NCBI RefSeq assembly: GCF_003344865.1
Contig: NZ_CP031165.1
Location: 4,903,910-4,967,909, forward strand
DNA from: Euzebya pacifica
GTDB taxonomy: Bacteria; Actinomycetota; Nitriliruptoria; Euzebyales; Euzebyaceae
Direction: 5' to 3'
Length of the DNA stretch: 64,000 bases
Both the position numbers and the translations under genes were made by a program. Below the pieces are notes generated by a model. That model made no database searches, was not told where the DNA came from, and worked only from the letters and a program-made list of their open reading frames with translations. Positions 18,992 to 45,969 of the stretch are shown one piece after another (the stretch's first letter is position 1; each line of letters begins with the position of its first letter).

Positions 18992-19663
18992 GTGGAGATT
19001 TCCGACCAGGGGTTCGACACGCGTCCGATGGGACAGCGTGTGTACGACCACCTGCGCAAGAGCATCGAGTCACAGGAACTCGCCCCGCTCGAACGGATTG
19101 TGCAGGAACGGGTTGCCGAGGAGATGTCCACTTCCAGGACGCCGGTTCGGGAAGCGCTCAACCGCCTCATCCAGGATGGTCTCGTCACCTGGGTCGCCGG
19201 CGCCGGATTCTTCGTTTCCCAGCTTCGACGGAAGGACGTCGAGGAAACGCAGCATCTCCGCCGAATCCTCGAGGTCGAAGCGTTGCGGCTGGCACTTCCG
19301 GCCTACACACCTGCGGACATCCGCCATCTCAGGTCCATCTATCTCGAAATGGTCGAAGCCGACCCCGACAGGGCCGACTATGTCGATCTGACTCGACGGT
19401 TCCACCAGGCGTTGGTCGGCCCATGCCCCAACGAACTGCTGCTGAAGCACATAGACGAGGTATGGACCGTGGCCTCCTACGCCAAGGTCATCGGCCGGTA
19501 CGGCGAAACACAGGAGAGCGTCGACATCATGATCGCGGACCACTTCGAGATCATCGCGGCGTTGGAGTCCGAGGATCCGGCCGCGGCAATCACACTCCTC
19601 GAGGAACACCTGGCGTCGGTGCACACGTCGATCACCCACATCCTTGCTGAGGACGAGGTCTAG
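18992..19663 (+). CDS. GntR/FadR-family transcriptional regulator (FCD type)
   Basis: Regulator of 223 aa. The winged helix-turn-helix is residues 13-80 (MGQRVYDHLRKSIESQEL and ERVAEEMSTSRTPVREALNR). The FCD effector domain follows with helices carrying E-T-Q-H-L-R-R, D...F-H and late H residues that form the usual metal/carboxylate pocket. It begins at a GTG. Its stop codon overlaps the stop of the converging urea channel gene in a shared CTAG. Its position next to the urease locus and the shared GTGTAGAC-type element suggest that it controls urea or nitrogen-compound metabolism. The effector is unknown. Confidence 0.85.
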   Translation: MEISDQGFDTRPMGQRVYDHLRKSIESQELAPLERIVQERVAEEMSTSRTPVREALNRLIQDGLVTWVAGAGFFVSQLRRKDVEETQHLRRILEVEALRLALPAYTPADIRHLRSIYLEMVEADPDRADYVDLTRRFHQALVGPCPNELLLKHIDEVWTVASYAKVIGRYGETQESVDIMIADHFEIIAALESEDPAAAITLLEEHLASVHTSITHILAEDEV

Positions 19664-20751: not shown

Positions 20752-21760
20752 TGCTGTCCCTCCTCTTCGAACCCTCACGGCGGGTGACGTGGGGCTCGAA
20801 TCCGTGCTTGATGCGGTAGATCGGTGGCGTGTCGACGCCGAGCAGCTGGCGGCGGGCCGCCTGCCAGGACAGCTGGGTGGCCGCTGCGGTCCGAGTGGTG
20901 CCCGAGCCGAGCATCCGGGCATGCGCTCCCACTTCGGAGGGAAGGACGCTGGCACTCCCGACCACTCCCTCGATGTCCTGCAGGTTTTCGTGCATCGCGT
21001 CGGCCAACGGCGCCGCGTCGTGTGACTCGGCGACAGCGAACATCACGGACATGTCAGAGAACTCCCCGAACAGCCCTGGCGTGGTGACTGCGCTGCGCCG
21101 TGGCTCGAGCACGTTCGTGTCCGCCATGATCAGCTCACCTGTCGGACGATGGCAGCGGATTCGTGAGTAGAGCAGGTCGAACGCCCACGACTCGCCGTGG
21201 CCCACTCGGCCCGGGGTGAGGTGCTCGCTGTAGAGAAGCTTCGCGGAGGGGTCGACGGTGAGGTTGACCTCGTTGTACAGACGGGAGCCCGACGCCGGGA
21301 TCAGCGGATCCATCAGGACCTCGGCATAGGCCCCTTCCCCCACGGTGACGTCGACCCGCTGTGACGCGTAGTTGCGGCTCATCTCCATCACCTTGGTGGC
21401 CCCCTGGTTGGCCACCAGCACCTTGGCGCCATCACCAATCACCAACTCGACGCGGAGCCGGTCTCCCTGCAGGATCCCAGCTCCCACGTTCTGGATGAAC
21501 ACGACCGCCATGTCCTCGATGGCCGTGTCGAGGTAGTGGACCTGTCGGACGATCTGTTGGCCCGAGGAGAAGTTGCGGATCAGGTGGGTCCGACCGTTCC
21601 GCAGCTCGAAGTGCAACTGCAGGAACCCGGTCTTACCGTGTGCCGCAGCCGCCATCTGCACCAGCGGTTCCGAGCCGTAGCCGGAGAAGGCCGTGGGCAG
21701 GCGCAGCACGTCCGTCCACGCGTCCTTCTCCAAGTACGGCACGGCCGCCACCATGGTCAT
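20741..21760 (-). CDS. ureD: Urease accessory protein UreD/UreH
   Basis: Nickel-insertion scaffold protein, 339 aa. UreD binds apo-urease and recruits UreF and UreG for GTP-dependent nickel delivery. Family features include [40 protein letters not shown] and [21 protein letters not shown], equivalent to the central beta-helix. The protein is longer than many UreD proteins (about 270-300) because of extra N- and C-terminal residues, the tail being basic ([16 protein letters not shown]). The start overlaps the ureG stop by 4 bp (ATGA) and the end overlaps the urea channel start. It sits last among the accessory genes. Confidence 0.88.
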
Positions 21761-22410
21761 GCCACGGCTTCGTCGCGGCTGACCTCGGAGTCGAGGTCGA
21801 TGAACAGGGCATCACGCAGAAGGGTCCTGTAGACCTCGTCCACACCTTCGCCGGTCTTGCAGTTGGTGAAGAGCACAGGTCGATCGTCGGGCCGCATCTG
21901 CCTGGCCTGTCGGTCCATCAGTTCGAGGTCGGCGTCCACGAACGGCGCCAGGTCCGTCTTGTTGATGACCAGCAGGTCGGAGTGGGTGATGCCCGGCCCG
22001 TTCTTGCGCGGGATCTTGTCCCCGGCCGCCACATCGATCACGTAGACGAAGTAGTCGACCAGGGCAGGGCTGAACGTCAGGGTGAGGTTGTCCCCGCCGC
22101 TCTCGATGAAGGCGACGTGGGCATCGGGGAACTGACGCTCCAGCTCCTCGAGCGCGCCGAGGTTCATCGTGGGGTCCTCGCGGATGGCCGTGTGCGGACA
22201 TGCTCCGGTCTCCACGCCAACGATCCGCTCGGGCGCGAGGGTGTTCGCGAGGTTCTCACGGACGTGCTTGGCGTCCTCCTGGGTGACGATGTCGTTGGTG
22301 ATGACGACCGGGTCGTACTCGCCCTTCACGAAGAGTGGGACGATCGCCTCGATAAGCGCGGTCTTGCCGGAGCCGACGGGGCCGCCGATCCCGATGCGGG
22401 GCATGCTCAT
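21757..22410 (-). CDS. ureG: Urease accessory GTPase UreG
   Basis: SIMIBI-class GTPase for nickel delivery to urease, 217 aa. P-loop [13 protein letters not shown] is at residues 9-21. The metal-binding CPH motif lies in [16 protein letters not shown], the Walker-B-like acidic stretch is [10 protein letters not shown], and NKTD supplies guanine specificity. The length equals the family norm. It starts 75 bp downstream of ureF and overlaps ureD by 4 bp. UreG dimerises on nickel and GTP binding and hands nickel to the UreDF-urease complex. All key residues are present. Confidence 0.95.
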
Positions 22411-22485
22411 GTGCTTCCTCTTTCCATGTTGAAGGCGGCCATGCCCGTGCGGGCGATGGCAGCAGTTCTTGGCTGACGCAGATGT

Positions 22486-23220
22486 TCAGCTGGCGAACAT
22501 CCGCATACGGGAACGTTCGTGCTGCATCTGCATGACGTCGATCATGGGCGCGAAGGCGTGCATGTCCTGGTACGGCGTGTCCATGGTCGCGTCGCATGCT
22601 GCGGTCATCTTTTGATGGAGTCGCAGCATGATCTCCTGGGCGTGGACGTGATCGAGACGCATCAGGCGGAGCGCAGCGCTGATCAGCGCCGCGGTGTAGG
22701 CATAGAGTTCGCTCAGAACCGCGGTGCGTCGATCGATTCCCCACGCGTGGCTCACGATCCCAACCACAGCAGCGTGGCTGCCCACCGCTTGCCCCTGCTC
22801 CACTGCGGACTCGAACGCCGTCAGGAAAGGCGAGTCCAGGAGCCGCTGGGCAGTTCGGATGAACTGCCTTCCCGTCCTCACCGATGCGCTGGACGCCTCC
22901 TGCGGCAGGCGGAGGGCGTGGACGTGGCGATCGATGTCCACGGCAGTCGCCAGGTCGTCATCGGCTGCGGCCTTCCAGGCTGCAGCGACAGCCACCGCCT
23001 CGCAGCGTCCGAGCGAGTGGACCAAGTAGTCCGAGACGACGGCTTCCAGCGAAGCCGCATCATGGACACGCCCACTCTCCACGAACATCTCCAGGCCGTG
23101 CGAGAGGGTGTAGCGACCCGACGGAAACAGGCTGTCGGACAGCTGCAGCGTCCCGAGCAGGCTCTGGGCAGTCTGCGGGAACACCTCTTGGGGGGCCTCC
23201 CCACAGGACTCGGCGGCCAT
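22486..23220 (-). CDS. ureF: Urease accessory protein UreF
   Basis: All-helical UreF protein, 244 aa, which binds UreD and gates the UreG GTPase. Recognisable stretches include LQLSDSLFPSGRYTLSHGLE near the N-terminus (S-F-P-x-G-x-Y-x-x-S-x-G-L), DYLVHSLGRCEAVAVAAAW, VGSHAAVVGIVSHAWGIDRR and YAYTAALISAALRLMRLDH. The start codon overlaps the ureE stop (TGATG). The tail is rich in methionine and histidine (MQMQHERSRMRMF), which may bind metal. It lies between ureE and ureG as usual. Confidence 0.9.
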   Translation of the reverse strand: MAAESCGEAPQEVFPQTAQSLLGTLQLSDSLFPSGRYTLSHGLEMFVESGRVHDAASLEAVVSDYLVHSLGRCEAVAVAAAWKAAADDDLATAVDIDRHVHALRLPQEASSASVRTGRQFIRTAQRLLDSPFLTAFESAVEQGQAVGSHAAVVGIVSHAWGIDRRTAVLSELYAYTAALISAALRLMRLDHVHAQEIMLRLHQKMTAACDATMDTPYQDMHAFAPMIDVMQMQHERSRMRMFAS

Positions 23221-23753
23221 CAGGCTGGGTGACGGTGTTCGATGTGCGGCATCGCCGTCGGCACGTCGCCCGGCTGCACCGGGACGAACTCGGATTCGAT
23301 GCCGTCGAAACCATGGGTCCGCACGACCGTTTCCATGACCTTGTGATCGATAGTGAGGGGCGCGTAGACGACATCGTCCTTGACGGTGATCGGCCAGTGC
23401 TGGTTCCCGAGCATGTGGCCGAGACGGACCCCGAACTCGAAGAGTTGGTCCGCCGGAATCTCCTTGCTCATGCGCAGGGCCATGGCCTCGCTCGGGGCAA
23501 CCTCGATGAGCACCATGCGGTCGGACTCGTCACCGACGGCGAGGACATCGCCGTTCTGGAGTGCCTCGTCCATGGGGAGGTCCACACCGATGTCGGTGCC
23601 CTGATCGGTCCTCAATCGCACTCGGCGCCGCCCAGCATCGTGGAAGGGCACGAACACGCGCTCGACCTTCTTCTGCTTGTCGAGGCGCTGCACCTCCATC
23701 GACAGCGACTCGTCTGCATGGATGTTGCCGAGAACCTGGTTAGCGATGTGCAT
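23220..23753 (-). CDS. ureE: Urease accessory nickel chaperone UreE
   Basis: Nickel metallochaperone, 177 aa from the ATG at 23753. The N-terminal peptide-binding domain (residues 1-75) is followed by the metal-binding domain with RLGHMLGNQHWPITVKDD, which contains the conserved histidine used at the dimer interface. The C-terminal end has a modest histidine-rich tail (MPHIEHRHPA) that can bind extra nickel. The ATG is preferred over a frame starting 39 bp earlier because homology begins with HIANQVLGNI. It is preceded by a small ORF of unknown function and overlaps ureF. Confidence 0.88.
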   Translation of the reverse strand: MHIANQVLGNIHADESLSMEVQRLDKQKKVERVFVPFHDAGRRRVRLRTDQGTDIGVDLPMDEALQNGDVLAVGDESDRMVLIEVAPSEAMALRMSKEIPADQLFEFGVRLGHMLGNQHWPITVKDDVVYAPLTIDHKVMETVVRTHGFDGIESEFVPVQPGDVPTAMPHIEHRHPA

Positions 23754-23798
23754 CAGATGGTGTCCTGTGTGATTCGTGCGGATGGGAGCCACCAGAAA

Positions 23799-24140
23799 TC
23801 AACCCCGACGCTCCCGGAGTACAGCCAGCCACTCCTGACGCCGTGCACCCTCGTCGACGGGACCGAGGCGTTGGGAGGCGTCGTGCCGTGCACGACAGCG
23901 TGCGAACTGCCCGTTCTCGTCCAGGACGAGTTCGGCGTCGACCTCGAGGCGAACCGCGATGACGCACTCGCCCAGGTCGTGGCCGGCGAAGTCCCGGTTG
24001 AGATGCGTGGTGGGATCGATCGGACCGGCCAGGGACGCCACATGGCTTGCCCTGACCGTCCCGTGATGCACGAGCGAGGGATCGATCATCAGTCCATCCG
24101 GATCGACGTTGTCGGCCTGAGTGATGTGTCGAACTGTCAC
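23799..24140 (-). CDS. Unknown small protein inside the urease operon
   Basis: A 113-residue protein of unknown family between ureC and ureE. The GTG start at 24140 has GAGGA upstream and gives TVRHITQADNVDPDGLMID at the N-terminus. The middle is acidic (DFAGHDLGECVIAVRLEVDA, ELVLDENGQFARC), and the end is arginine-rich. Several histidines (RHI, LVHHG, ASHV, THLN, AGHD, RHD) and two cysteines could bind metal, but this is speculation. The frame is preferred to overlapping ones because of composition, start signal and same-strand spacing (31 bp from ureC, 45 bp from ureE). It may be a lineage-specific urease accessory factor. Confidence 0.6.
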   Translation of the reverse strand: MTVRHITQADNVDPDGLMIDPSLVHHGTVRASHVASLAGPIDPTTHLNRDFAGHDLGECVIAVRLEVDAELVLDENGQFARCRARHDASQRLGPVDEGARRQEWLAVLRERRG

Positions 24141-24171
24141 AATGGTCCTCGCTCGTGCGTCGGTGGCGGCG

Positions 24172-25890
24172 TCAGAGGATGAAGTACTTCTGCGTGAGCG
24201 GAAGCTTGTCAGCCGGTTCTGACGTGGCGACCTCACCGTCGACCTGGACCTCGAAGGTCTCGGGGTTGATCGTGATGTCGGCGGTGCGGTCGTTGAGCAC
24301 CATGTCCTGCTTGGACACGGTCCTCGTCCCCTGGACAGCATAGATCTGGCTCTCCAGACCGAGTTCCTCGGGAACGCCGAGTTCGATGGAGGCCTGCGAC
24401 ATGAACGTGGCGCGCGTGGCCGTCATGGCCTTGCCGAACGCCCCGAACATCGGGCGGTAGTAGACCGGCTGGGGGGTCGGCAGCGACGCGTTGGGGTCAC
24501 CCATCAGCGCCCACGCGATCATCCCGCCCTTGACCACGAGCGACGGCTTGGCGGCGAAGTCCGCGAAGTCCCAGAGCACGAGGTCGGCCATCTTGCCCGG
24601 CTCGATCGAGCCGACGACGTGTGCCATCCCCTGCACCCTGGCGGGGTTGATGGTGCACTTCGCCAGGTAGCGAAGGACCCGGAAGTTGTCGTTGCCGGAT
24701 GCGTCCTCGGGGAGCGGGCCCCGCTGGTCCTTCATCTTGCTGGCGGTCTGCATGCACCGCGTGAAGTGCTCGCCGACCCGGCCCATCGCCTGGCTGTCGG
24801 AGGAGTAGATGCTGAGCAGGCCCCAGTCGTGCAGGACGTCCTCGGCAGCGATCGTCTCGGCGCGGATACGGCTTTCGGCGAAGGCCACGTCGGAGGGGAT
24901 CTTGGGGTCGAGGTGGTGACACACCATCAGCATGTCGAGATGCTCGTCGATGGTGTTGACCGTGTAGGGCCGCGTGGGGTTGGTGGAGGAGGGAAGCGCC
25001 CACTGGTACCCGGCCACGGTCATGATGTCGGGGGCGTGTCCCCCGCCGGCACCCTCGGTGTGGAAGGTGTGGATGGCGCGACCGTCGATTGCGTCGATGG
25101 TGTCCTCGACGAAGCCCGACTCATTGAGGGAGTCGGTGTGGACGGCGACCTGGACGTCGTAGTCGTCGGCGACGTGGAGCGCGCACGAGAGCACAGCAGG
25201 GGTGGTGCCCCAGTCCTCATGGCACTTCAGGCCCGCCGCACCGGCGTGGAGCTGCTCGATCAGCGGTGCCTTGCGGGAGCTGTTGCCCTTCGCGAAGACC
25301 CCGATGTTCATCGGGAGGCCCTCGAAGGCCCGAAGCATGTGCTTGATGTTCCACGGGCCGGGGGTGGCCGTGGTGGCGTTGGATCCGCTGGAGGGTCCGG
25401 TGCCGCCACCGAACATCGTGGTCACGCCGATCGACAGGGCGTCGTAGACCTGCTGTGGGCTGATGAAGTGCACATGCGTGTCGACACCTCCGGCGGTGAC
25501 GATCTTGCCCTCACCCGCGATGACATCGGTGCTGGGGCCCACGAGCAGGTTGTGGTCGACGCCGGGCTGGGTGGCGGGGTTGCCCGCCTGTCCGATGCCG
25601 ACGATCTTGCCGTCCTTGATGCCGAGGTCGCCCTTGACGATCCCGACCATCGGGTCCATGACCACGACGTTGGTGATCACGAGGTCCAGCGCACCCTGCT
25701 GGGACGTGAAGCGCGGGTTCTGCCCCATGCCGTCGCGGATGGTCTTGCCACCGCCGAAGACGATCTCCTCGCCCGGGGTGCCGAAGTCCTTCTCGATCTC
25801 GATGACGAGAGAGGTGTCGGCGAGTCGTACCTTGTCGCCGGTCGTCGGGCCGTACAACGATGCGTATTGCTGCCTTGAGATTGATGCCAT
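24172..25890 (-). CDS. ureC: Urease alpha subunit
   Basis: Catalytic subunit of urease, 572 aa, which hydrolyses urea to ammonia and carbamate with a bis-nickel centre. The carbamylated lysine lies in GLKCHEDWG, the first nickel histidines in THVHF, and the flap and catalytic histidine in MVCHHLDP. The segment [16 protein letters not shown] carries further ligands, and an aspartate ligand lies in [12 protein letters not shown]. The residue after the carbamylated lysine is cysteine where many enzymes have isoleucine. The full length matches the family. It follows ureB by 64 bp and works with UreA and UreB. Confidence 0.97.
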
Positions 25891-34415: not shown

Positions 34416-35654
34416 CTACAACTTCTCCGACGTCCCGTTGGGCCCCGATGGCGGCGACCGCAGCGTGGCCCGGACGGCCTGCTCCATTACTGCCAGCCCC
34501 ACGACCATGGCGTCCTCGTCGAAGTCGAACTCGGGGCTGTGGTGGGGGAAGGTCAGCCCGCGGGCGGGGTTGGCCCCGCCGACCCAGAAGTAGCACCCGG
34601 GAAGGTCCATGAGGATCTCCGACATGTCGTCGGCGCCGGCGACGACGCGCTCGGCGGTGACGTTGCCCTCCCCCAGGACCGCGCGGGCGGCCGCAGCCAC
34701 GGTCGCGGTGATCGCTGGGGCGTTGACGCAGGCGGGGTAGGTGTCGTCGCGCAGGTCGACCTCGACGGTGCACCCGTGGGTGGCCGCAGTGCCCTCGGCG
34801 ATCTGGCGCAGCCGCCGCTGGATGATCCCGAGGTCGTCGTTGTCGTAGGTGCGGATGGTTCCCTCCAGCTCGACCTCGGCGGGGATCGCCGACCGGTCCT
34901 CGCCGCCGTGGATCCGGCCGAAGCTCACCACCGCGGCCGACCGAGGGGCGAGGGTGCGCGACACGATGGTCTGGGCAGCCATCACGAACGCCGACGCGCA
35001 GACGACCGGGTCGGGCGTCAGGTGCGGGTAGGCCGCGTGCCCACCGGGCGAGCCGAACTTGACGGCGACGCTCTGGGCGCTCGCCGCGATCGTGCCCGGA
35101 CGGATGTCGACGGTCCCGACGGGCAGCTCGGTGGCGATGTGCAGGGCGAGGCTGGCGCTGGGGGTGAGGTCATCCGGCCAGGCCCTGGCGTCCAGCATCC
35201 GGCGGGCCCCGCCACCGCGCTCCTCGGCGGGCTGGAACAGCAGGACCACGTTGCCGGCCAGCGCGTCCCGTTCCGCGGTCAGCCGCTCGGCGAGGGCCAG
35301 GGCGACGGCGACGTGGCCGTCGTGGCCGCAGGCATGGGACACCCCCTCGACGGTCGAGACGTAGTCATGCCCGCGGTCGGCCTCGGTGATGCCCAGCGCA
35401 TCGATGTCGGCGCGGACCAGCACGGTCGGGCCCGGTTCGCCGCCGCGCACCCAGCCGACGACTCCGGTGTCGGCCACCGGATGGGCCACCCCGTCGACGC
35501 CGACCTCGCCGAGGCGGTCGGCGATGAGCTGCGCGGTGCGATGCTCCTGGCGAGACAGCTCCGGGTGGCGGTGCAGGTCCCGGCGAACCGCAACCATTCG
35601 GTCCCGGACGTCCGGGGGGACGGCGATGTCGGACAGCTGCTCGATGGCGGTCAT
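34416..35654 (-). CDS. M20-family metallopeptidase / amidohydrolase
   Basis: Predicted amidohydrolase of the M20D (AbgA/hippurate hydrolase-like) family, 412 aa. Metal and catalytic residues are visible: H and D in the segment around RADIDALGI, CGHDGH, and the glutamate pair in LLFQPAEERGGGARRML, with the dimerisation domain after PGGHAAYPH. It removes an acyl group from an N-acyl amino acid or related amide. The start overlaps the upstream flavoenzyme by 4 bp (ATGA), so the two work from one transcript, last in the CDF-oxidase-amidohydrolase unit. A fragment copy lies at 33637-33773. Confidence 0.87.
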   Translation of the reverse strand: MTAIEQLSDIAVPPDVRDRMVAVRRDLHRHPELSRQEHRTAQLIADRLGEVGVDGVAHPVADTGVVGWVRGGEPGPTVLVRADIDALGITEADRGHDYVSTVEGVSHACGHDGHVAVALALAERLTAERDALAGNVVLLFQPAEERGGGARRMLDARAWPDDLTPSASLALHIATELPVGTVDIRPGTIAASAQSVAVKFGSPGGHAAYPHLTPDPVVCASAFVMAAQTIVSRTLAPRSAAVVSFGRIHGGEDRSAIPAEVELEGTIRTYDNDDLGIIQRRLRQIAEGTAATHGCTVEVDLRDDTYPACVNAPAITATVAAAARAVLGEGNVTAERVVAGADDMSEILMDLPGCYFWVGGANPARGLTFPHHSPEFDFDEDAMVVGLAVMEQAVRATLRSPPSGPNGTSEKL

Positions 35655-36757
35655 CGGGGACTCCTGCGGTCGGCACGGGCGGCGGAGAGACTGAAGCGGG
35701 CAGTCGGCTGGGTGGCGCCCTCGACAAGGTCGGCCAGGACCTCTCCCACGGCGGGGGCGAACTTGAAGCCATGCCCGGAGAACCCGGCACCGACGGTGAT
35801 CGGGCCGACCCGGTCCAGCACGAAGTCCTTGGTCGACGTGGTGGTGTACAGGCACCGGTCGAACCCGATCGGTTCGGGGTCGAGGCCCGGCATCCATCGG
35901 CGCACGTAGTCGCTGGTGCGGGCGGCGGTGGCGGGGTCGGCGTCGAAGGGACGGTCGTCGGGGTCCAGCCATTCGTCGCGGTAGTGCTCGGCGACCTTGG
36001 TACCCCGAGCGGGCGAGTCCAGGCCGTAGATGTCCTCCCGACCGCGGTGGATGAATGCTGGCAGCGGCGCGATGCCGTCGCGCCGCCGGAAGTACATCGG
36101 CTGCTCGGCGCTCACCTGCAGGGACGGCAGGTCCACCAGCCCGCCCAGGAGCGTTCCGGCCCACGCTCCCGCCGTGACCACGACCTGGCTGGCGCTGATC
36201 CGTTCTCCGCCGTCGAGGAGGAGGACGGCACCCGCCCCGTCCACCTCGATGCCGACCACGGCGCTGCCGGTCCGGATCGTGGCGCCGTGCCGCCGAGCGG
36301 CCTCGTGGGCGGCGACGACGCTGCGTTCGGCGAACACCATGCCCCCGTCGGGATGCACCAGCACCGCCTCGTCGAAGGCCATGGCCGGCCAGGCCCGGGC
36401 CGCCTCCAACGGTTCGACGCGTCGGTGGGGCACACCTTGGGCGTTCATGGCGGCGGCCAACGCGTCGATGGTCACGGCGGGGCCGTGGTCCAGCGCACCG
36501 GTCAGCCGCAGCAGGTCAGCGCCGGTCTCCTGCTCCAGACGCCGCCAGCCGGGCAGCGCCTGCTGGCCCAGGTGGATGTAGTCCGCCTCGTCGTAGCCCA
36601 AGCGGAAGATCCGGGTCTCGGCGTGACTGGACCCCCGGTGGTGGACGACGGCGAACCGTTCGAGCAGCACGACGTCATGACCTCGGGCGGCAAGCGCCCA
36701 CGCGGTGCTCGCCCCCATGATCCCGCCGCCGACGACGACCACCTCGAACGGTGACAT
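35651..36757 (-). CDS. FAD-dependent oxidase, monomeric sarcosine oxidase / N-methyltryptophan oxidase-like
   Basis: Flavoprotein of the DAO/MSOX family, 368 aa. The N-terminal dinucleotide motif is VVVGGGIMGASTAWALAARG. RFRLGY-like and YIHLGQQALPGW segments follow, and a cysteine in FDRCLYTTTSTKDFVLD matches the covalent-flavin cysteine of monomeric sarcosine oxidase. GFSGHGFKFAPAVGEVLADL closes the FAD site. It oxidises N-methyl or secondary amino acids with release of hydrogen peroxide. It starts two bases after the CDF exporter stop and overlaps the amidohydrolase, giving a tight three-gene unit. The true substrate is unknown. Confidence 0.87.
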   Translation of the reverse strand: MSPFEVVVVGGGIMGASTAWALAARGHDVVLLERFAVVHHRGSSHAETRIFRLGYDEADYIHLGQQALPGWRRLEQETGADLLRLTGALDHGPAVTIDALAAAMNAQGVPHRRVEPLEAARAWPAMAFDEAVLVHPDGGMVFAERSVVAAHEAARRHGATIRTGSAVVGIEVDGAGAVLLLDGGERISASQVVVTAGAWAGTLLGGLVDLPSLQVSAEQPMYFRRRDGIAPLPAFIHRGREDIYGLDSPARGTKVAEHYRDEWLDPDDRPFDADPATAARTSDYVRRWMPGLDPEPIGFDRCLYTTTSTKDFVLDRVGPITVGAGFSGHGFKFAPAVGEVLADLVEGATQPTARFSLSAARADRRSPR

Positions 36758-36759
36758 GG

Positions 36760-37836
36760 TCAGCCGACGGGCGCGGGCGAGGCGTGGGTGGTGGCGGTGT
36801 CGATGTGGACCGCCACCTCGGTGAGGTGCTGCACGCCCTCGACCAAGCGCTGCTTGACGGCGTCGCCGACCGCGTGGCCCTGCTCCACCGTCATGCGGCC
36901 ATCCACCTGGACCGACACCTCCGCGCGCATGCGGTGGCCCAGCCACCGAACCCGGCAGCTGGACACCCGCTCCACGTCAGCGACCTGCAGGGCGAGGGCC
37001 TCGACCTGCGTCCGGACCTCGGGGTCCACGCCGTCCATCAGGCGGCGGAAGATGTCCCGGGCGGCGGTGCGCAGCACACCGAAGATCGCGATGGAGATGA
37101 GGATGCCGATGATCGGGTCGGCCTGCTCGAAGCCCAGCCACACCCCGACCGCGCCGAGCGCGACCGCCAGCGACGTCAGGCCGTCGGTGCGGGCATGGTG
37201 CCCGTCGGCCACGAGCGCGGCGGAGCCGATCTCCTTGCCGATGCGGATGCGGTACAGGGCGACCAGCTCGTTGCCGAGGAACCCGATGACCCCGGCGCCG
37301 AACAGGACGCCGATGTGCTCGATCGGCTGGGGGTCGAGCAGCCGACGGAACGACTCCCATCCCGCGATGATCGCCGACAGCAGGATCATCAGCACGATGA
37401 ACAGCCCGGCGAGGTCCTCTGCCCGCTTGTAGCCGTAGAGGTAACGGTCGGTCGCTGCTCGCCGGCCGATGACGAACGCCAGGTACAGGGGGATGGCGGT
37501 CAGTGCGTCGGAGAAGTTGTGGATGGTGTCGGCCAGCAACGCCACCGAGCCGGTGAAGTACACGATCGCCAGCTGGGCGAACGCCGTCACCATCAGCGCG
37601 GTGAAGGAGACCTTCAGCGCGACCATGCCCCGTGCGCTGCCCTCCAGCGCCTCGTCGGCAGAGTCGGCGTGGTCGTGGGAGTGCATGCCGAACATCTCGC
37701 TCAACCCATGGCGAACCTTGTCCAACAGCCCCGTCCCATGCGCGTGATCGCCGTGGCCGTGCGCGTGGTCCCCATGGTCGTGACCGTGGCCCGCATGTTC
37801 GTGGGTCGTGGTCTGGTGGCCGTGCTCGTGCGTCAT
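36760..37836 (-). CDS. Cation diffusion facilitator (CDF) metal exporter
   Basis: Metal/proton antiporter of the CDF family, 358 aa. The first 60 residues are extremely histidine-rich (HEHGHQTTTHEHAGHGHDHG), a cytosolic metal-binding tail. Six membrane helices follow with the HxxxD ligands HNFSD in helix 2 and HARTD in helix 5, the pattern of zinc-type and broad transporters. A C-terminal cytoplasmic domain (about residues 270-358) ends the protein. It removes zinc, nickel or cobalt from the cytoplasm. Its promoter at about 37893-37921 overlaps a 20-bp palindrome and lies just after the Fur-family regulator gene. Confidence 0.9.
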   Translation of the reverse strand: MTHEHGHQTTTHEHAGHGHDHGDHAHGHGDHAHGTGLLDKVRHGLSEMFGMHSHDHADSADEALEGSARGMVALKVSFTALMVTAFAQLAIVYFTGSVALLADTIHNFSDALTAIPLYLAFVIGRRAATDRYLYGYKRAEDLAGLFIVLMILLSAIIAGWESFRRLLDPQPIEHIGVLFGAGVIGFLGNELVALYRIRIGKEIGSAALVADGHHARTDGLTSLAVALGAVGVWLGFEQADPIIGILISIAIFGVLRTAARDIFRRLMDGVDPEVRTQVEALALQVADVERVSSCRVRWLGHRMRAEVSVQVDGRMTVEQGHAVGDAVKQRLVEGVQHLTEVAVHIDTATTHASPAPVG

Positions 37837-37892: not shown

Positions 37893-37923
37893 ACCGTATC
37901 CACTATTGCGATGGTTCGCAATA
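37893..37923 (-). promoter_or_regulatory. Promoter and Fur-type operator before the CDF gene
   Basis: The perfect palindrome TATTGCGATGGTTCGCAATA spans 37904-37923 (arms of 8 with a 4-bp centre). On the minus strand TTGCGA can serve as -35 and TACGGT (37893-37898) as -10 with 17 bp between, so the operator covers the -35 and spacer. It shares the TTGC-N8-GCAA layout with the site before the ABC operon at 45203-45218. Confidence 0.65.
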
Positions 37924-37950
37924 AGGAACGACTGCAATACGAGGGAAGTC

Positions 37951-38418
37951 CTACCCGGCGGGCGCCCCCACACGCCCGGTGTCGGACCAGTCACACGCCG
38001 CGCACAACCCGACGATGGCGAAGTGGTGGCTCGCTGGGGTGAAGCCGTACTTGGCCTTGATGCCGTCGAAGGCGGGGGCGAACTCCTGGACCGGGACGGT
38101 GTAGGAGCGTCCGCACCCCTCGCAGATGAGGTGATGGTGGTCGTGGTCGACGGTCGGGTGCCAGGCCCAGCTCTGCTTGCCGATCGGGACGTAGTGTGCG
38201 TAGCCGATGTTCTGCAGCTCGTTGAGCGTGCGGTACACCGTCGAGGTGTCCATCGGCGCGCCGCCCTCGGCGACGCGCTCGGTGATGTCCTTCACGGTCA
38301 GGAAGCCCTCGTTGGCCTCGGCCAGAACCCGGCAGATCACCCGCCGCGGCAGGGTCAGCCGGAGGCCGTTGGACTTCAGGGCCGCCAGCAGCTGTTCCTC
38401 GATCCGTGCAGGCGTCAT
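37951..38418 (-). CDS. Fur-family metalloregulator (Zur/Nur-like)
   Basis: Ferric-uptake-regulator family repressor, 155 aa. A winged helix occupies residues 1-85 (SNGLRLTLPRRVICRVLAEA, then DTSTVYRTLNELQNIG as recognition helix). The metal-sensing domain has HDHHHLICEGCGRS and a second CxxC (GLCAACDWS) for structural zinc. The family splits into Fur, Zur, Nur, Mur and PerR, and the sequence alone does not settle which this is. Location between an ABC importer operon and a CDF exporter, plus a nickel-requiring urease nearby and TTGC-GCAA sites like Nur boxes, argues for nickel or zinc sensing. Confidence 0.85.
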   Translation of the reverse strand: MTPARIEEQLLAALKSNGLRLTLPRRVICRVLAEANEGFLTVKDITERVAEGGAPMDTSTVYRTLNELQNIGYAHYVPIGKQSWAWHPTVDHDHHHLICEGCGRSYTVPVQEFAPAFDGIKAKYGFTPASHHFAIVGLCAACDWSDTGRVGAPAG

Positions 38419-38454
38419 GCCTGCACAGTACGCGTCCTGTCTCCCAGCTGCGAC

Positions 38455-39744
38455 TCAGCTGCTACTTCCGTTGCACGAACATGCGTCTGACTGCAACTGT
38501 GGGCGAGTTGCACGTAGCCGGTCGAGGTCGGCCAGCACCACGGGGTCCGCTGCTGCGGCGGTATCGGACGGTATGGGGTCCTTGTAGGACGCCGACGTGC
38601 CCAGCGCCACCGTCACGCCGTCGACCCGTTCGGCGACCCTCCTGGCCGCCGCGATGGCGACCGCAGCAGCGGTCTCCACCATCAGGCCGACCTCGGCACC
38701 CACGCGGGCTTTCTCGGCCAGGTAGGTCCCGGCCTCCACCGGGACCGCCCAACCATCGGTACGACGTATGGCGTGCAGGCCCTGCCAGTGTGCGCGGTCC
38801 GAACCGATGGAGAACGCCGGGGAGTCGTGGCGTGTCACGACCACGCGGTCCTGCTCGTCGATGTCATCCAGCGCCAGGGCGGCGCTGAACGCCGCGCCGG
38901 TGGCCGCCTCCGCGGCCACGAGGCGAGGCATGCGGGGCAGCAGCCCGGCGGCGACGAGCTCGTCGAACCCGCTGGCCACCCCCGACAGGAGGTCGGCACG
39001 GGAGGTCGGGACCACCACTGCCGCCAGCTCGTCACCGAGGTCGCGGGCCAGCTCGTAGGCGATGCTCTTGTAGCCGGCGTTGCCGAAGGGGTTGCCGCCC
39101 ACACGGCTGTCGAGGAAGGTGACCGGGTACCAGCCGAGTTCGGCAACCGACCTCGTGGTCAACTCCGCCCGTTCGGCAAGGTCGTCGAGGATCACCAGGT
39201 GGGCACCCAGCGTGGCGAGCATCGACGCGAACATCGGGGGGATGCCCGGCGTGGTGAGGATGACCGCCCGCAGTCCGGCCCGTGCGGCATAGGCGCTGGC
39301 GGCCAGGCCGGCGTTGCCCGAGGACGGGGCCACGATCGTGTCGGCTCCGACCTCCAGGGCCTTGGCGACTGCCACGGACATGCCGCGGTCCTTGTGGGAC
39401 GCCGTCGGGTTGGCGGCCTCGTTCTTGATCCAGATCGGGGAGGTCCCGTCGCTGGCCAGCGGGATGAGGGGGGTGTCCCCCTCCCCCAGGGTCACCGGCG
39501 CGACGTCCGAGCTGACCGGGAGGGTGTCCCGCCAACCCCACGGGCCCCCGGCGAAGTCGGCCAGGTCACGACCGCCCAGGTCGGTGGGCGGCGGGACGAG
39601 GTTGACGTACACCCCCTCGGCAGCACAGGTCGCACAGCCGGTGTAGCCGTGCTGGCGCAGCTCGCAGCGCGGGCACTGCAGGTCCGGACCGGTCTCGGCG
39701 GTGAGGCGGGGCGAAGCGGATTCAGGCGTGGTCAGGTGGCTCAT
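38455..39744 (-). CDS. PLP-dependent threonine synthase-like enzyme with zinc ribbon
   Basis: Fold-type II PLP enzyme of 429 aa. The N-terminal CPRCELRQHGYTGCATC is a four-cysteine zinc ribbon found in many threonine synthase-like proteins. The PLP lysine is in NPTASHKDRGMS, and the phosphate-binding glycine/serine loop is SSGNAGLAASAYAARAG. It may be a threonine synthase or a related beta/gamma-replacing enzyme or ammonia lyase. The start overlaps the upstream solute-binding protein gene by 4 bp, so it is co-translated with the ABC importer, which is unusual for housekeeping threonine synthesis and suggests processing of an imported compound. Confidence 0.8.
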   Translation of the reverse strand: MSHLTTPESASPRLTAETGPDLQCPRCELRQHGYTGCATCAAEGVYVNLVPPPTDLGGRDLADFAGGPWGWRDTLPVSSDVAPVTLGEGDTPLIPLASDGTSPIWIKNEAANPTASHKDRGMSVAVAKALEVGADTIVAPSSGNAGLAASAYAARAGLRAVILTTPGIPPMFASMLATLGAHLVILDDLAERAELTTRSVAELGWYPVTFLDSRVGGNPFGNAGYKSIAYELARDLGDELAAVVVPTSRADLLSGVASGFDELVAAGLLPRMPRLVAAEAATGAAFSAALALDDIDEQDRVVVTRHDSPAFSIGSDRAHWQGLHAIRRTDGWAVPVEAGTYLAEKARVGAEVGLMVETAAAVAIAAARRVAERVDGVTVALGTSASYKDPIPSDTAAAADPVVLADLDRLRATRPQLQSDACSCNGSSS

Positions 39745-41432
39745 GGTGCGGTCTGCCAGTCGACGTTGATGTAGAACTGTGAGGGCTCGTAGCCGGCCCA
39801 CTCGGGGGAGACGACCATCGCGATCGGTCGCGAGGCCACCATGAACGCGTAGGCCTGGTCGGTGATCACACGCTCCTGCAGCTCCGTCAACAGCTGGTCG
39901 CGCTCCTCGATGTCGAACGCCTGGTTCAGGTCGGCCAACATCTCGTTGACCTCGGGGTCGTCGATGTGGCCGGCGTTGAACGCGCCGTCGGTACCCAGCA
40001 GGTCCTGGGCGAGGCCGAGGATGTCGCCGTAGCCGAAGAACCCGGTGCGGAACAGGCCGATGTGCCAGCCGGTGAGGTCCTCGGAGTACAGCGCGGAGCT
40101 GGAGTCGACCTCACGGATCGATGCGTCGAACCCGACTTCACCGAGGTGGGCGGCCATGGCCGTGGCGACGGGCAGCATGTCCGGGTCGGCCTGGTAGGCC
40201 ACGATCTCGATCGCGAGGGGCTCCCCGTCCCTGGTGCGCACCCCGTCGTCGCCCAATTCCCAGCCGGCCTCGTCCAGCCGAGCGGCGGCCTCCTCCGGGT
40301 CGTGGACCTGGTTCTCGACGGCGAAGGCCGAGTCGGCGGGGTACATGCCGGTGGCGACGTCGGCGACGCCGTCCAGGACGTCGGTGGCGATGCTCTCGTA
40401 GTCGATCGCCAGGCTGATGGCCTGCCGGACCAGTGGGTCGTCGGTCGGGGGCTCCTCGATCTGGATGGTCGCGCGGGGTCCGAGGGTGCCCGAGGCCGCC
40501 CTCGTGTAGATGGCGTCCTCCGCCCCCTCCAGCTCCGCCGCCGCGGCGGTCGGGGCGTACATGGCCACGTCGACCTCACCGGAGCGCACCGCGAGGATGC
40601 GTGACTGGTCGTCGGCGATGAAGGCGAGGGTGACCTGCTCCAGCGGCGGCGTGCCCTGCCAGTAGTCCTCGTTGCGGTCCATCACCATCTGCGAGGCGTC
40701 GAGCGACACCACCCGGTAGGGCCCGGTGTAGAGGCCCGCGTCCATCAGGGCCTGCTCGTCGGGGTCCTCCCCCAAGGCCTCCCTGGCGGCGACGTCGTAG
40801 ACGGGGACGACCTCGTTGGCCAGCAGCGCCGGGAGGTTGGCCGCCGGCTCGGAAGTGGTGACCGACACGGTCAGGTCACCGGTGGCCTCGACGGCCACGT
40901 CCGGCAGGGCCGAGGCCAGGGTGTCGCTGGCAGCGACGTGTGCCTGGAGGACCGCCACCACTGCGTCGGCGTCGACCGGGTTGCCGTTCTGGAAGGTCAC
41001 GCCCTCGTGGATCGTCAGCTCCCACTCGGTGTCGCTGACCGACTCCGCGGACGCTGCCACCCAGGACTCGGGCACGCCGTCGGGGGTCTGGCGAAGCAGC
41101 AGCTCACCGAAGCCGAAGCCCTGGGCCCAGTAGCCCTCCACGGTCGGGTCGATGCTGCTGATCGGGAAGCTGCTGGCGATGACAAGGGTGTCATCCCCGG
41201 CCTCTGTCGCGTCCGACCCGGCGTCGTCGGCCTCGGCCCCGGTCTGCTCACCGGCGTCCTCGGCAGCGGTCGATGTGGAGCTCGACACCTCCCCACCGCC
41301 CTCGTCGCCAGCGACGTCGCCGGCGCCCGAGCAGCCGGCGAGGGTCAGGGCTGCGACCAGCAGCAACAGGAGCAAGTGGGCCCTGGGGCGTCTCGCGCCG
41401 TCGTGCAGGGTGTGGTCCGCGTATCCGGTCAT
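39741..41432 (-). CDS. ABC transporter solute-binding lipoprotein (SBP family 5)
   Basis: Extracellular binding lipoprotein of the peptide/nickel family, 563 aa. The signal ends in LTLAGC-SGAGD (lipobox cysteine near residue 34), and the mature protein opens with a long acidic, serine/threonine-rich linker. The family stretch WELTIHEGVTFQNGNPVDAD and the later RQAISLAIDYESIATDVLDG are characteristic. Ligands of this family include oligopeptides, nickel and metal chelates. The start overlaps the ATPase gene upstream by 4 bp. It is the capture component of the importer formed by the four preceding genes. Confidence 0.9.
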   Translation of the reverse strand: MTGYADHTLHDGARRPRAHLLLLLLVAALTLAGCSGAGDVAGDEGGGEVSSSTSTAAEDAGEQTGAEADDAGSDATEAGDDTLVIASSFPISSIDPTVEGYWAQGFGFGELLLRQTPDGVPESWVAASAESVSDTEWELTIHEGVTFQNGNPVDADAVVAVLQAHVAASDTLASALPDVAVEATGDLTVSVTTSEPAANLPALLANEVVPVYDVAAREALGEDPDEQALMDAGLYTGPYRVVSLDASQMVMDRNEDYWQGTPPLEQVTLAFIADDQSRILAVRSGEVDVAMYAPTAAAAELEGAEDAIYTRAASGTLGPRATIQIEEPPTDDPLVRQAISLAIDYESIATDVLDGVADVATGMYPADSAFAVENQVHDPEEAAARLDEAGWELGDDGVRTRDGEPLAIEIVAYQADPDMLPVATAMAAHLGEVGFDASIREVDSSSALYSEDLTGWHIGLFRTGFFGYGDILGLAQDLLGTDGAFNAGHIDDPEVNEMLADLNQAFDIEERDQLLTELQERVITDQAYAFMVASRPIAMVVSPEWAGYEPSQFYINVDWQTAP

Positions 41433-42292
41433 AACGACAACTCCTCGTTGCTTGGGTTCGGGCGGCCAGGGGCGTCAGTCGATCGCCCCTCGAGGTCTGG
41501 GTCACCGGCGTCGGCCGGCGTGATGTCCACGGTCTGGTGCCCGGGGTAGGGCCGGGTGGGATCGTGGCGCTGCAGGTCCTCGCGGGAGGTGCGCTCCACC
41601 ACCCGGCCGTGGTCCATGCGCACCAAGCGGTCGGCGAGGACGGCGAGGAAGTTGCGGTCGTGGCTGACCACCACCAGGGCGATGCCGAGGGAGTCGGCGG
41701 CCTCGCGCAGCACGCGGGTGACCCCGGCGGCGGTCGTCACATCCAGGGCGGCGGTGGGCTCGTCGGCGACCACCAGGCTCGGTTCTGCAACCAGGGCCCG
41801 CACGATCGCCACCCGCTGGGCCTGGCCGCCGGACAGGCGTGCGGGCAGCGCCCGCTCGTCCAGGTGACCGAGTCCCACCCGACCCATCTGTTCGCGGGCG
41901 ATCCGTCGACGTTCGTCGGTGGACATGCGCCGTCGGCCGACGGTCAGGGGCTCGGTGATCGACCGCCAGATCGGCCAGCGACGGTTGAGGCTGGCCACCG
42001 GGTCCTGGAAGACCGGCATGACGAAGCCGGGCCTGGGAAGCCGGGGTCCGCGACGCGCACCCTCCCAGATGTCGACGCCGCCCATGCGGACCCGGCCCTG
42101 GTCGGGCCGTTCTCGTCCGCTGATCAGCCGCAGCGTGGTGGACTTGCCGCAGCCCGACGGGCCGGTGATGCCCAGGATCTCCCCGGGGTGCACGGCGAGG
42201 GAGACGTCGTCGACTGCGAGGACCTCGTGGTGGCCGACGACGTAGCCGCAGGTCAGCCCCTCGCAGGCGAGGAGGGGGGCGCTGTCCGTCAT
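41429..42292 (-). CDS. ABC transporter ATPase (DppF/NikE-like)
   Basis: ATPase of 287 aa. Walker A is GPSGCGKSTT, Walker B SLVVADEPTAALD, signature LSGGQAQRVAIVRAL and switch histidine VVVSHDRNF. An N-terminal LTCGYVVGHHEVLAVDDVSL replaces the usual start. It is shorter than many DppF proteins and lacks the classic OppF tail; the final residues are charged and proline-rich. It overlaps the previous ATPase and the binding-protein gene by 4 bp each, showing a strictly coupled operon. The two ATPases form the heterodimer that powers import. Confidence 0.9.
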   Translation of the reverse strand: MTDSAPLLACEGLTCGYVVGHHEVLAVDDVSLAVHPGEILGITGPSGCGKSTTLRLISGRERPDQGRVRMGGVDIWEGARRGPRLPRPGFVMPVFQDPVASLNRRWPIWRSITEPLTVGRRRMSTDERRRIAREQMGRVGLGHLDERALPARLSGGQAQRVAIVRALVAEPSLVVADEPTAALDVTTAAGVTRVLREAADSLGIALVVVSHDRNFLAVLADRLVRMDHGRVVERTSREDLQRHDPTRPYPGHQTVDITPADAGDPDLEGRSTDAPGRPNPSNEELSL

Positions 42293-43227
42293 GGACCGAC
42301 CACCTCCAGGGGGTGGTGGCAGGCCACGCCGTCGCGCAGCACGGGTAACTGGTCCTCGCAACCCGCCCCGGCGCAGTGGCAGCGTGCCCTGAACGAGCAG
42401 CCGGGGACGGTGGCCAGCAACGACGGTGGGGCGCCCTCGAGCTCCTCGGGGAGTCCATGACCCGGCCGGGGGGACGCGGCGACGAGTGCCCGTGTATAGG
42501 GATGTCGGGCGCGCGAGAGGACCTCCGACGCAGGTCCGGCCTCCACGATCCGGCCGTGGTACATCACCGCGATCCGGTCGGCATGCCTGCCGACCAGGGA
42601 CAGGTCGTGGCTGACCAGCAGCAGCCCATCGGTGGCCTCGCGCAGGATCTGCAGGACCCCGTCGCTGCGGTCGGCGTCCAGCGCGCTGGTGGGCTCGTCG
42701 GCCACGGTGAGCGCGGGACGGTGCACCGTCGCCGCGGCGATGGTGGCCCGTTGGAGCATGCCCCCCGACCACTGGTTGGGCCGCGCCTGGGCTCGATGGC
42801 CTGCCTGGTCGATCCCGAGCGCCTCGAGACGCTCGATCGCCGCGCCGGTCGGCGGGGTGGCCCGCACCGCGGTCCAGCCCTCCTCCACGTGGTGGCGAAC
42901 CGACCGCAGCGGGTCGCAGGCGGCGTAGGGGTCCTGTCCGACGTAGCCGATGGTGTGGCCGCGCAGCCGACGGATCGTGCGACGGGAGGCGCCGACGACC
43001 TCGACGCCGCCCACGACGATCGACCCGGCGACGGTGGTGCGGCGGGGCAGCAGGCCGAGGATGGCGTGGGCGACAGTGGTCTTGCCGCAGCCGGACTCAC
43101 CGACAAGGGCCAAGCACTCTCCGGGGGCGAGCTCCAGGGAGACCGAGCGCACGGCCTGTGCGCCGTTGCTGTAGCAGACGGAGAGATCCGCGATGCGCAG
43201 CACTGCGTCGGTGTCAGGAGTGTCCAT
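42289..43227 (-). CDS. ABC transporter ATPase (DppD/NikD-like)
   Basis: ATPase of 312 aa with Walker A GESGCGKTTVAH, signature WSGGMLQRATIAAA and Walker B ALTVADEPTSALD. It has the oligopeptide/dipeptide family C-terminal extension containing the four-cysteine cluster (CSFRARCHCAGAGCED), which binds an iron-sulfur cluster in relatives. The start codon overlaps the permease stop (TGATG) and the end overlaps the next ATPase by 4 bp. It works with the permeases at 43227-45148. Confidence 0.92.
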   Translation of the reverse strand: MDTPDTDAVLRIADLSVCYSNGAQAVRSVSLELAPGECLALVGESGCGKTTVAHAILGLLPRRTTVAGSIVVGGVEVVGASRRTIRRLRGHTIGYVGQDPYAACDPLRSVRHHVEEGWTAVRATPPTGAAIERLEALGIDQAGHRAQARPNQWSGGMLQRATIAAATVHRPALTVADEPTSALDADRSDGVLQILREATDGLLLVSHDLSLVGRHADRIAVMYHGRIVEAGPASEVLSRARHPYTRALVAASPRPGHGLPEELEGAPPSLLATVPGCSFRARCHCAGAGCEDQLPVLRDGVACHHPLEVVGP

Positions 43228-44132
43228 CAGCGTTGCCAGCTCGGGTCGGTGACGTCACGGAGGGCCTCGGAGATCAGCAGGGATGCGGCGACCGCGGCCA
43301 TGATCGCCAGGCCCGGTGCGAGGGCCAGCTCGGGTGCGCGGTTGACCACGTCGCGGCTCTCGGCCAGCATCCGCCCCCACTCCGCGGTCGGGGGCTGGAC
43401 GCCGAGCCCGAGAAACGACAGCGCCGACAGGCCGAGGATGATGGAGCTCAGCTCCAGGGTGGCGGCGATCATCAGCTGGGCCACCACACCGGGCAGGACG
43501 TGGCCGAAGGCCCGCCGCAATGGTCCGACACCCGCCATCCGGGCGGCCACCACGTCGGGACGCTGGTTGGCGCCCAGCACGTAGCTGCGGGCCAACCGCG
43601 CAGGATAGGCCCAGCCACCCAAGGTCATGGCGATGATGAGGTTGCGCAGGCTGGGGCCCAGGGCCCCGACCACGGCGAGGGCCAGGATCAGCGAAGGGAT
43701 GCCGAGCATCACGTCGACCAGCCGCGACAGCAGGCTGTCCACGAGCCCGCCGGCCAGCCCGGCGGTGGATCCGAGGGCCAGTCCGATGGTGGTGGTGAGC
43801 ACGAAGATGGCTGCGGCAGCCCCCAGGGTCGTCCGGGCCCCGGCGGCGATCCGTGCCAGCTGGTCGCGGCCGGCCTCGTCGGTGCCCAGCAGGTGCTCGG
43901 CGCTGGGGCCCTGGAGCTTGTTGGCGAAGTCGGCGGTATCGGGGTCGGCGGTGAGCATGGGCCCGAGGACGGTCAGGGCGACCAGAAGGACGGTCAGGGC
44001 CAGCCCGATCCGTCCGGACGGGTGGCGGACGAGCCGGGCCAGGACGCTGCTCGACGCGGACGTGATGTGGACGGCCAGCGGCGCCTCGACGGTGTCGGCC
44101 GAGGGCAGGGTGTCCACGTCTGCCCCGCTCAT
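43227..44132 (-). CDS. ABC transporter permease (DppC/NikC-like)
   Basis: Second membrane subunit, 301 aa, with six predicted helices and the EAA loop region VVAARMAGVGPLRRAFGHVLPG. The helix LGLSALSFLGLGVQPPTAEWG is a family signature. The ATG at 44132 is chosen because it overlaps the stop of the first permease by 4 bp (ATGA) like the other genes of the operon; a start five codons earlier is possible. It pairs with the first permease to form the pore. Confidence 0.9.
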   Translation of the reverse strand: MSGADVDTLPSADTVEAPLAVHITSASSSVLARLVRHPSGRIGLALTVLLVALTVLGPMLTADPDTADFANKLQGPSAEHLLGTDEAGRDQLARIAAGARTTLGAAAAIFVLTTTIGLALGSTAGLAGGLVDSLLSRLVDVMLGIPSLILALAVVGALGPSLRNLIIAMTLGGWAYPARLARSYVLGANQRPDVVAARMAGVGPLRRAFGHVLPGVVAQLMIAATLELSSIILGLSALSFLGLGVQPPTAEWGRMLAESRDVVNRAPELALAPGLAIMAAVAASLLISEALRDVTDPSWQR

Positions 44133-45148
44133 GTCCGCGCCGCCCAACGGGTCAGCTGGGTCTTGCGCTGGGTCGGGATCAGCCGCGGGTCGATGGCCGC
44201 CGACACCAGGTCCACCACCAGGCTGGACAGCACGAAGGCAAGCACGGCGAACAGGGTGAACGCCTGCACCACCGGCAGGTCACGGGCGTTGATGGACTCC
44301 ACGGTGAACCGGCCGATCCCGGGCCAGGTGAACACCGTCTCGATCACGGGGGTGCCGGCCAGCAGGTAGCCCACGCTGACTCCGACGATGGCCAGGAACG
44401 GCACTGCGGTGTTGGGCAGTGCGTGGACGACCAGCAGGCGCAGCCGGCCGGCCCCACGCGCCGTGGACACCCGCATGAACGACGCCGATGAGGCCTCCAG
44501 CAACCCGCCGCGCAGGATCCGCGCCCACGAGGCGGCAGGCCACGCGCCCAGGGCGATGGCAGGTAGCCACACGGTGCCCCAACCTCCGGTGGCGACCACC
44601 GACCCGAGCCCCCATCGCAGCACCACGATCTGCAGCAGCAGCACCCCGACGAGGAAGCTGGGTGCCGACACCAGCACGAAGGAGAGCATGCGCACCAGCG
44701 CGTCGGGCCAACGGCCGGCCGTCGCCGCGCCGACAAGGCCGAGCGGGATCGACACGCCCAGGGCCACCAGCATCGACGCCGCGGTGAGGACGAGCGTCGG
44801 CGGGAGGTAGCGGCGGAACTCCTCGCTGACGGGACGGCCGGTGCGCCAGGAGGTCCCCAGGTCGCCCGTCACCGCCCCCGATGCCCAGATCAGGTACTGA
44901 CGCCCGATGGGCTGGTCGAGCCCCAGCTCCTCCCGGACCGCTTCGACCTGGGCGGGCGTCGGCTCGCGCAGCGGGTTCTGGGCGGCGACGACCCGCCGAG
45001 CGGGGTCGTCGGGCGTCAGGCCGGTCAGGCTCCAGACAAGGATGCTGGCGAACAACAAGGTGACGGCCGTCTGTACGGTCCGCTGCAGCATGCGCAGGGC
45101 GAATCGTCGACGGGCCGCCGCCGTGCTCCGGTCACTTCGCACTCGCAT
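44129..45148 (-). CDS. ABC transporter permease (DppB/NikB-like), first gene of operon
   Basis: First membrane subunit of the importer, 339 aa, with six helices and a large periplasmic loop after helix 1 (EELGLDQPIGRQYLIWASGA, then VTGDLGTSWRTGRPV, a DppB signature). The EAA loop contains FMRVSTARGAGRLRLLVVHALPN, and GTPVIETVFTWPGIGRFTVE closes the pore half. The ATG is preceded by GGAGGTGGAGG. It leads the operon of five transporter genes plus a PLP enzyme. Substrates of the family are peptides, nickel or opine-type metal chelates. Confidence 0.92.
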   Translation of the reverse strand: MRVRSDRSTAAARRRFALRMLQRTVQTAVTLLFASILVWSLTGLTPDDPARRVVAAQNPLREPTPAQVEAVREELGLDQPIGRQYLIWASGAVTGDLGTSWRTGRPVSEEFRRYLPPTLVLTAASMLVALGVSIPLGLVGAATAGRWPDALVRMLSFVLVSAPSFLVGVLLLQIVVLRWGLGSVVATGGWGTVWLPAIALGAWPAASWARILRGGLLEASSASFMRVSTARGAGRLRLLVVHALPNTAVPFLAIVGVSVGYLLAGTPVIETVFTWPGIGRFTVESINARDLPVVQAFTLFAVLAFVLSSLVVDLVSAAIDPRLIPTQRKTQLTRWAART

Positions 45149-45166
45149 CCTCCACCTCCGGATCTG

Positions 45167-45218
45167 AATCTAGCCACGGTTCGCTATCGCGATCAAGTCT
45201 TATTGCATGTTGTTGCAA
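45167..45218 (-). promoter_or_regulatory. Promoter and operator of the ABC importer operon
   Basis: On the minus strand, TTGATC (45191-45196) and TAGATT (45167-45172) stand 18 bp apart as -35 and -10. Six bases further upstream lies TTGCATGTTGTTGCAA (45203-45218), an inverted repeat with the same TTGC-N8-GCAA spacing as the site before the CDF gene. Published Nur boxes have similar TTGCAA arms, though spaced one base wider. Confidence 0.65.
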
Positions 45219-45348
45219 CAGCGTCTTCTGCATGTGACGAACCGATGACAGCTCTCGGACACGCGCACGTCCCCACCCAAGGGGTCGGGTGGGGGCGTTG
45301 GGGAGTTCCGGCCTGGTGCAGTGCCCGCTGCCGCGGCCGGTCAGGAAG

Positions 45349-45790: not shown

Positions 45791-45837
45791 GTGGAGCCGG
45801 GTCGGGGAATCGAACCCCGGACCTATTCATTACGAGT
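45791..45837 (-). repeat. 47-bp direct repeat of the tRNA-Thr 3' half (putative att site)
   Basis: Identical over 47 bp to 58992-59038, covering the CCA end, acceptor 3' strand, T-arm and the anticodon stem-loop 3' part of tRNA-Thr(CGT). The sequence departs abruptly after GAGT, so it is a fragment, not a gene. The orientation and position are those expected of the displaced 3' end after integration of an element into the tRNA gene. Confidence 0.85.
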
Positions 45838-45969
45838 TACGGCGCGCCGCCAAGCAGGAGGACGTTGCAGCACTAGGTTTGCGGCCGCTGGCCTGCGGTT
45901 CTTCGAAGCCGACCGACCTGCCGGCCATTCCTCTCCAGTTCCCTTCTTCCTCCGGTTTCCCCCTTAGCT

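Follow-up and report, generated by a model that had tools for sequence, protein, structure and literature searches.

The analysed DNA, referred to throughout as the window, was a stretch of 64,000 nt from Euzebya pacifica (RefSeq assembly GCF_003344865.1, contig NZ_CP031165.1, positions 4,903,910 to 4,967,909 of the forward strand). It contains a Fur-family gene, a gene for a CDF cation exporter and an ABC importer operon, as an earlier note on this DNA had described, except that the second of two palindromic sites was found to head a seven-gene operon in which fur is the last gene. All genes of both operons lie on the minus strand. The features, in descending coordinates, are as follows.

45201..45220, no strand assigned: site 2, operator TATTGC-N8-GCAACA (TATTGCATGTTGTTGCAACA)
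45167..45196, minus: predicted importer promoter (-35 TTGATC at 45191-45196, 18 bp, -10 TAGATT at 45167-45172)
44129..45148, minus: ABC permease, NikB/Opp type
43227..44132, minus: ABC permease, NikC/Opp type, its start taken at the ATG that overlaps the preceding stop
42289..43227, minus: ABC ATPase, NikD/Opp type
41429..42292, minus: ABC ATPase, NikE/Opp type
39741..41432, minus: family 5 solute-binding protein (SBP), best matches NikA-type (3t66, SaNikA 4ofj)
38455..39744, minus: threonine-synthase/PALP-family PLP enzyme, part of the importer operon, its start taken at the ATG that overlaps the SBP stop
37951..38418, minus: Fur-family regulator of 155 aa from the CDF-linked subgroup; its gene closes the importer operon
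37934..37939, minus: additional TATTGC half-site, lying 16 nt upstream of the TTGC of site 1, with an equal period upstream of the box at locus L131
37904..37923, no strand assigned: site 1, operator TATTGC-N8-GCAATA (TATTGCGATGGTTCGCAATA), perfect 8-bp arms
37893..37921, minus: predicted cdf promoter (-35 TTGCGA at 37916-37921, 17 bp, -10 TACGGT at 37893-37898)
36760..37836, minus: CDF cation exporter with a His-rich N-terminus; HxxxD in TM2 and TM5, from an alignment by reading
35651..36757, minus: FAD amino oxidase resembling sarcosine/N-methyl-tryptophan oxidases (225.6 bits, cut-off 257 bits)
34416..35654, minus: M20-type amidohydrolase, read from its sequence, its start overlapping the oxidase stop

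The importer operon was read in the order permB, permC, two ATPases, SBP, ThrC-like PLP enzyme and fur, mostly overlapping by a few bases. Site 1 lies between fur and cdf, and cdf is followed by the amino oxidase and then the amidohydrolase; the oxidase starts 2 nt past the cdf stop, and so is probably within the cdf operon. An inverted repeat TGCAACT-N7-AGTTGCA with outward-facing half-sites was seen where the PLP gene ends, directly ahead of fur (window 38480-38530). Near site 2, a sequence similar to the 3' part of a tRNA (GGTCGGGGAATCGAACCCCGGACC, window 45796-45870), uncalled by ARAGORN, is a possible integration remnant.

The two TTGC-N8-GCAA 16-mers reported earlier were recovered at 37906-37921 (TTGCGATGGTTCGCAA) and 45203-45218 (TTGCATGTTGTTGCAA), with identical spacing of the arms (N8) at both. 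Site 1 forms the palindrome TATTGCGA-TGGT-TCGCAATA, with 8-bp arms without error. No further match to TTGC-N8-GCAA was obtained in the window, where 0.24 were expected, and at least two matches were seen in 1 of 100 shuffles. Across the genome the 16-mer gave 33 sites and its reversed control 53, so that it is weak evidence alone and was rejected as the signature of a genome-wide regulon. The longer pattern YTATTGC-N8-GCAAYAG, scanned with 0 mismatches over the 6.37 Mb genome, returned only sites 1 and 2; it had been derived from these two sites themselves, and the weight of the case is therefore carried by other genomes. The regulon looks local, with two promoters.

The window regulator was assigned to the Fur superfamily by PF01475 (72.2 bits, gathering cut-off 23.1). 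Four Fur-family genes were counted in the genome: besides the window gene, one lies at znuA, another at katG, and a third is followed by cbiM. No match to the window protein was found in three genomes of the same genus at E up to 1e-15, or when a collection of genome contigs was scanned with this single protein; a plasmid search gave one match, at 30%. Its nearest kin (41-51% identity) come from another actinobacterial class, Acidimicrobiia where the records name a class, and these mostly acidimicrobial orthologues adjoin a CDF that is 46-67% identical to that of the window over most of its length. In the tree the window protein was a long branch placed within a CDF-linked clade (support 99/95) and outside the Zur sequences, which formed their own clade (100/99). 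The first four N8 proteins did not appear as a single clade in the tree, yet that grouping was not rejected (p-AU 0.15). No paper came up when the literature was searched for a Fur-family gene paired with a CDF in Acidimicrobiia, and no description of the subgroup was found in the library searched.

Promoters of CDF, fur or importer genes were found to carry an N8 box in 8 genomes including this one. The loci were the window, L131, L132 and L150, then L188, L189, L198 and L203, the last four of which were examined only after the spacer rule had been formed. In the scored N8 regions, an equally good N8 score arose in 0-5 of 200 shuffles, and no region held an N9 box; the boxes of L132, L188 and L189 carry one core mismatch, and the CDF genes of L131 and L189 are cut by a contig end and were read from their His-rich start only. 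Nur-type genes beside CbiM had N9 boxes in 14 of 14 cases, and those beside NiCoT in seven, with one N8 (N9 in 21/22 overall). When spacers of 5-13 bases were scanned, the peak fell at 8 in the CDF class and at 9 in the CbiM/NiCoT class, L189 tying at 8 and 9. Spacer length was associated with the partner gene (Fisher p = 1.5e-6, with kinship ignored).

Both classes coexist in the window's genome and in G611. In the former, an 8-1-8 palindrome (TTGCGAACGGTTCGCAA, L072 5375-5391, C1:5348875-5348891) was observed between cbiM and a second Fur-family gene; relative to this palindrome, site 1 has one spacer base fewer and one substitution. In B2, a branch of the CDF-linked clade with 13 loci aligned and 10 promoter regions scored, no recognisable N8 box was seen, which leaves 8 of roughly 22 clade loci with the box. 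A conserved TGACAT-N4-TTGCAA stands in its place upstream of fur and cdf in B2 (L136-L147). At L076, near Nur proper, an N8 box precedes a NiCoT gene. Because of B2 and L076, the spacer rule is strong but not absolute. Chance palindromes, or sites bound by some other protein, would agree with the lack of genome-wide enrichment of TTGC-N8-GCAA, but are very improbable given the equal spacing at the promoters of one gene pair, the recurrence in 8 genomes and the shuffle and control-spacing tests. Sites 1 and 2 are very likely a matched pair of candidate operators belonging to the adjacent Fur-family protein, and the importer and exporter promoters carry one type of site, as the earlier note had held.

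The same note had proposed a Nur/Zur regulon and had likened the sites to Nur boxes of Streptomyces. The published Nur box of S. coelicolor is tTGCaa-N5-ttGCAA, equivalent to TTGC-N9-GCAA with a 9-bp spacer (PMC3919588). The TTGC/GCAA arms agree with it, but both window sites have an 8-bp spacer. The box can still be called Nur-type, because TTGC-N9-GCAA boxes precede CbiM or NiCoT importers by Nur-like genes in many actinobacteria; the Zur half of the proposal was not borne out, nor was the assignment of the protein to Nur proper.

Aligned with Nur of S. coelicolor (3EYY), the window protein shares membership of the Fur family, the HFAI motif and both CxxC pairs, and His86, His88, His90 and His126 are kept. 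At the positions of His33, His70 and His72 it has Phe, Tyr and Pro. The ligand numbering used here, which we take to be His70, His72 and His126 for the nickel site and His33, His86, His88 and His90 for the M-site, gives Tyr, Pro and His for the former set in the window protein and Phe, His, His and His for the latter. With these residues altered, the window protein therefore does not show the full ligand sets expected of Nur as a sensor, while its box is still Nur-like. The His33 position was Phe in 17 of 17 aligned members of the CDF-linked clade and His in all CbiM/NiCoT-linked sequences, and position 75 was His in 0 of the 17. The N-terminal His ligand expected of a PerR (equivalent to His37) is likewise absent, the aligned residue being Phe.

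A true Nur, whose nickel-loaded form would repress a nickel importer and whose CDF would export nickel or cobalt, is suggested by the Nur-type arms, the NikA-type binding protein, the N9 boxes of relatives linked to the nickel/cobalt importers CbiM and NiCoT, and the presence in the window of a urease that needs nickel. We consider it unlikely, however: the spacer is 8 rather than 9, Phe, Tyr and Pro replace the three histidines, the conserved partner is a CDF, and the place of Nur is already filled in this genome by a separate Fur-family gene, which has cbiM and an N9 box beside it. The proposed CDF-linked N8 subgroup is defined by a neighbouring CDF, Phe in place of His33 and an N8 box, all three of which were found in the window. 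On these characters, the window protein belongs to a putative subgroup that is related to Nur but distinct, and is not to be filed as Nur or Zur.

Placement of the sites relative to the promoters was as the earlier note had given it, for promoters that are themselves predicted. Site 1 covers the predicted cdf -35 and much of its spacer, and the end of site 2 lies directly upstream of the predicted importer -35. Both promoters are weak matches, that of cdf being based on a TANNNT match only, and a stricter sigma-70 scan of the region returned no promoter. In seven N8 promoters with TANNNT from other genomes (five CDF promoters, that of the L198 CDF and a further one at L198), the -35 element falls on the downstream half of the box, with TANNNT 16-18 bases on; the coincidence of -35 and box half is expected by chance at about 0.027 per promoter. 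At the window cdf promoter, unlike these seven, it is the other half of the box that covers the -35. Boxes of the cbiM class lie mostly a few bases after the -10 element, as expected of a repressor site. With the N8 box lying over the exporter -35, the bound regulator would probably repress the exporter, and such repression would be odd for a metal-corepressed sensor. Activation from a box at such a -35 position is known for other regulators. At L198 a second perfect N8 box with -35 and -10 elements (4058-4073) was seen before a gene that by eye resembles glycerol-1-phosphate dehydrogenase, and at L203 three overlapping N8 boxes in 10-bp steps (1358-1393) lie right before a CDF gene, divergent to a sugar-type ABC ATPase.

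A zinc regulator modelled on Streptomyces Zur, which would activate the CDF and repress the importer, was weighed against the same geometry. Zur of S. coelicolor (3MWM) represses znuA and activates the CDF gene zitB with one box type, the zitB box lying 8 nt upstream of the -35 (PMC5472717). In the window, too, importer and CDF exporter carry one box type, Zur like the window protein has Phe at the His33 position, and the CDF has its best solved-structure matches in FieF/YiiP. The actinobacterial Zur box, by comparison, is a TGA..TCA palindrome, tGaNNatSatNNtCa (PMC5472717), to which neither TTGC..GCAA site conforms; site 1 lies over the exporter -35 rather than upstream of it, and it is site 2, at the importer, that has the zitB-activating geometry. 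A Zur regulon was rejected on the box, on the separate clade and on the Zur-type gene present at znuA in the same genome, and zinc control of this style is doubtful for the same reasons.

The transporters were scored against family models. The window set has all five NikABCDE/Opp components and an SBP closest to NikA-type proteins, but all scores fell short of the curated cut-offs of the nickel equivalogs (for the SBP, NF045468, 245 of 600 bits; TIGR02294, 122.8 of 393), and a PLP enzyme and fur lie inside the operon. The CDF exceeded the superfamily cut-off (TIGR01297, 224.8 bits against 82.35) and resembles the FieF/YiiP exporters; it differs from them in its His-rich N-terminus and its linkage to fur, and none of the CDF equivalog models reached its cut-off. 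Urease is a nickel enzyme, and a urease cluster (urea transporter UT, UreD and the UreC alpha subunit) was observed at window 19660-25890, in a lower-GC stretch of about 18-34 kb. The earlier note had suggested its promoter as a further target; no N8 or N9 box was found at the cluster, and it was rejected as such. Given the box, the type of importer and the presence of a urease cluster in the window, nickel or cobalt is put forward as a first guess at the leading metal, with zinc as the second.

A small local regulon covering both operons, in which the adjacent Fur-family protein of the CDF-linked subgroup reads the N8 palindrome, is the reading we prefer, at a probability of about 0.72. We infer that a dimer would bind both sites in response to cellular metal. 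Site 2 would control the importer operon and, as this ends in fur, would provide autoregulation; site 1 would control the operon of cdf, oxidase and amidohydrolase. At site 1 the dimer would cover the predicted exporter -35 and most likely repress, and at site 2, directly upstream of the predicted importer -35, it could repress or activate.

The two operons might instead be under coordinated, and not opposite, control by one switch, the metal complex of an amino-acid-like chelator being imported and broken down by the PLP enzyme, oxidase and amidohydrolase while the CDF removes surplus metal. Both operons do contain metabolic genes besides the transporters. Two more such CDFs (L224 and L223, 56% and 62% identical) were seen in this genome beside Opp/Nik-type ABC genes, and at L224 a cupin-like gene and a ThrC-like PLP enzyme are present as well. 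Neither of these two CDFs was found to have an N8 or N9 box, however, the acidimicrobial fur-CDF pair is without ABC genes, and the chelator is a guess; the idea is a tentative one, with somewhat less than an even chance. A sensor of reversed sense compared with Fur, Nur and Zur, whose metal-poor form would bind N8, hold the exporter off from over its -35 and help the window importer from just ahead of its -35 until released by metal, and whose paralogues would be insulated by one base, is a more speculative prospect that we think rather unlikely.

Sensors of the Fur family are usually sorted on their sequence into Fur, Zur, Nur and PerR. The preferred reading, a local N8 regulon of the CDF-linked subgroup, would add a Nur-like protein whose ligand residues are changed and whose partner is an exporter, with a box one spacer base off the Nur box and both boxes in the same genomes. 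This reading raises the questions of whether a one-base difference in half-site spacing suffices to keep paralogous sensors separate, as it may do for the related sensors of a single cell, and whether derepression of an exporter can be the task of a Fur-family protein.
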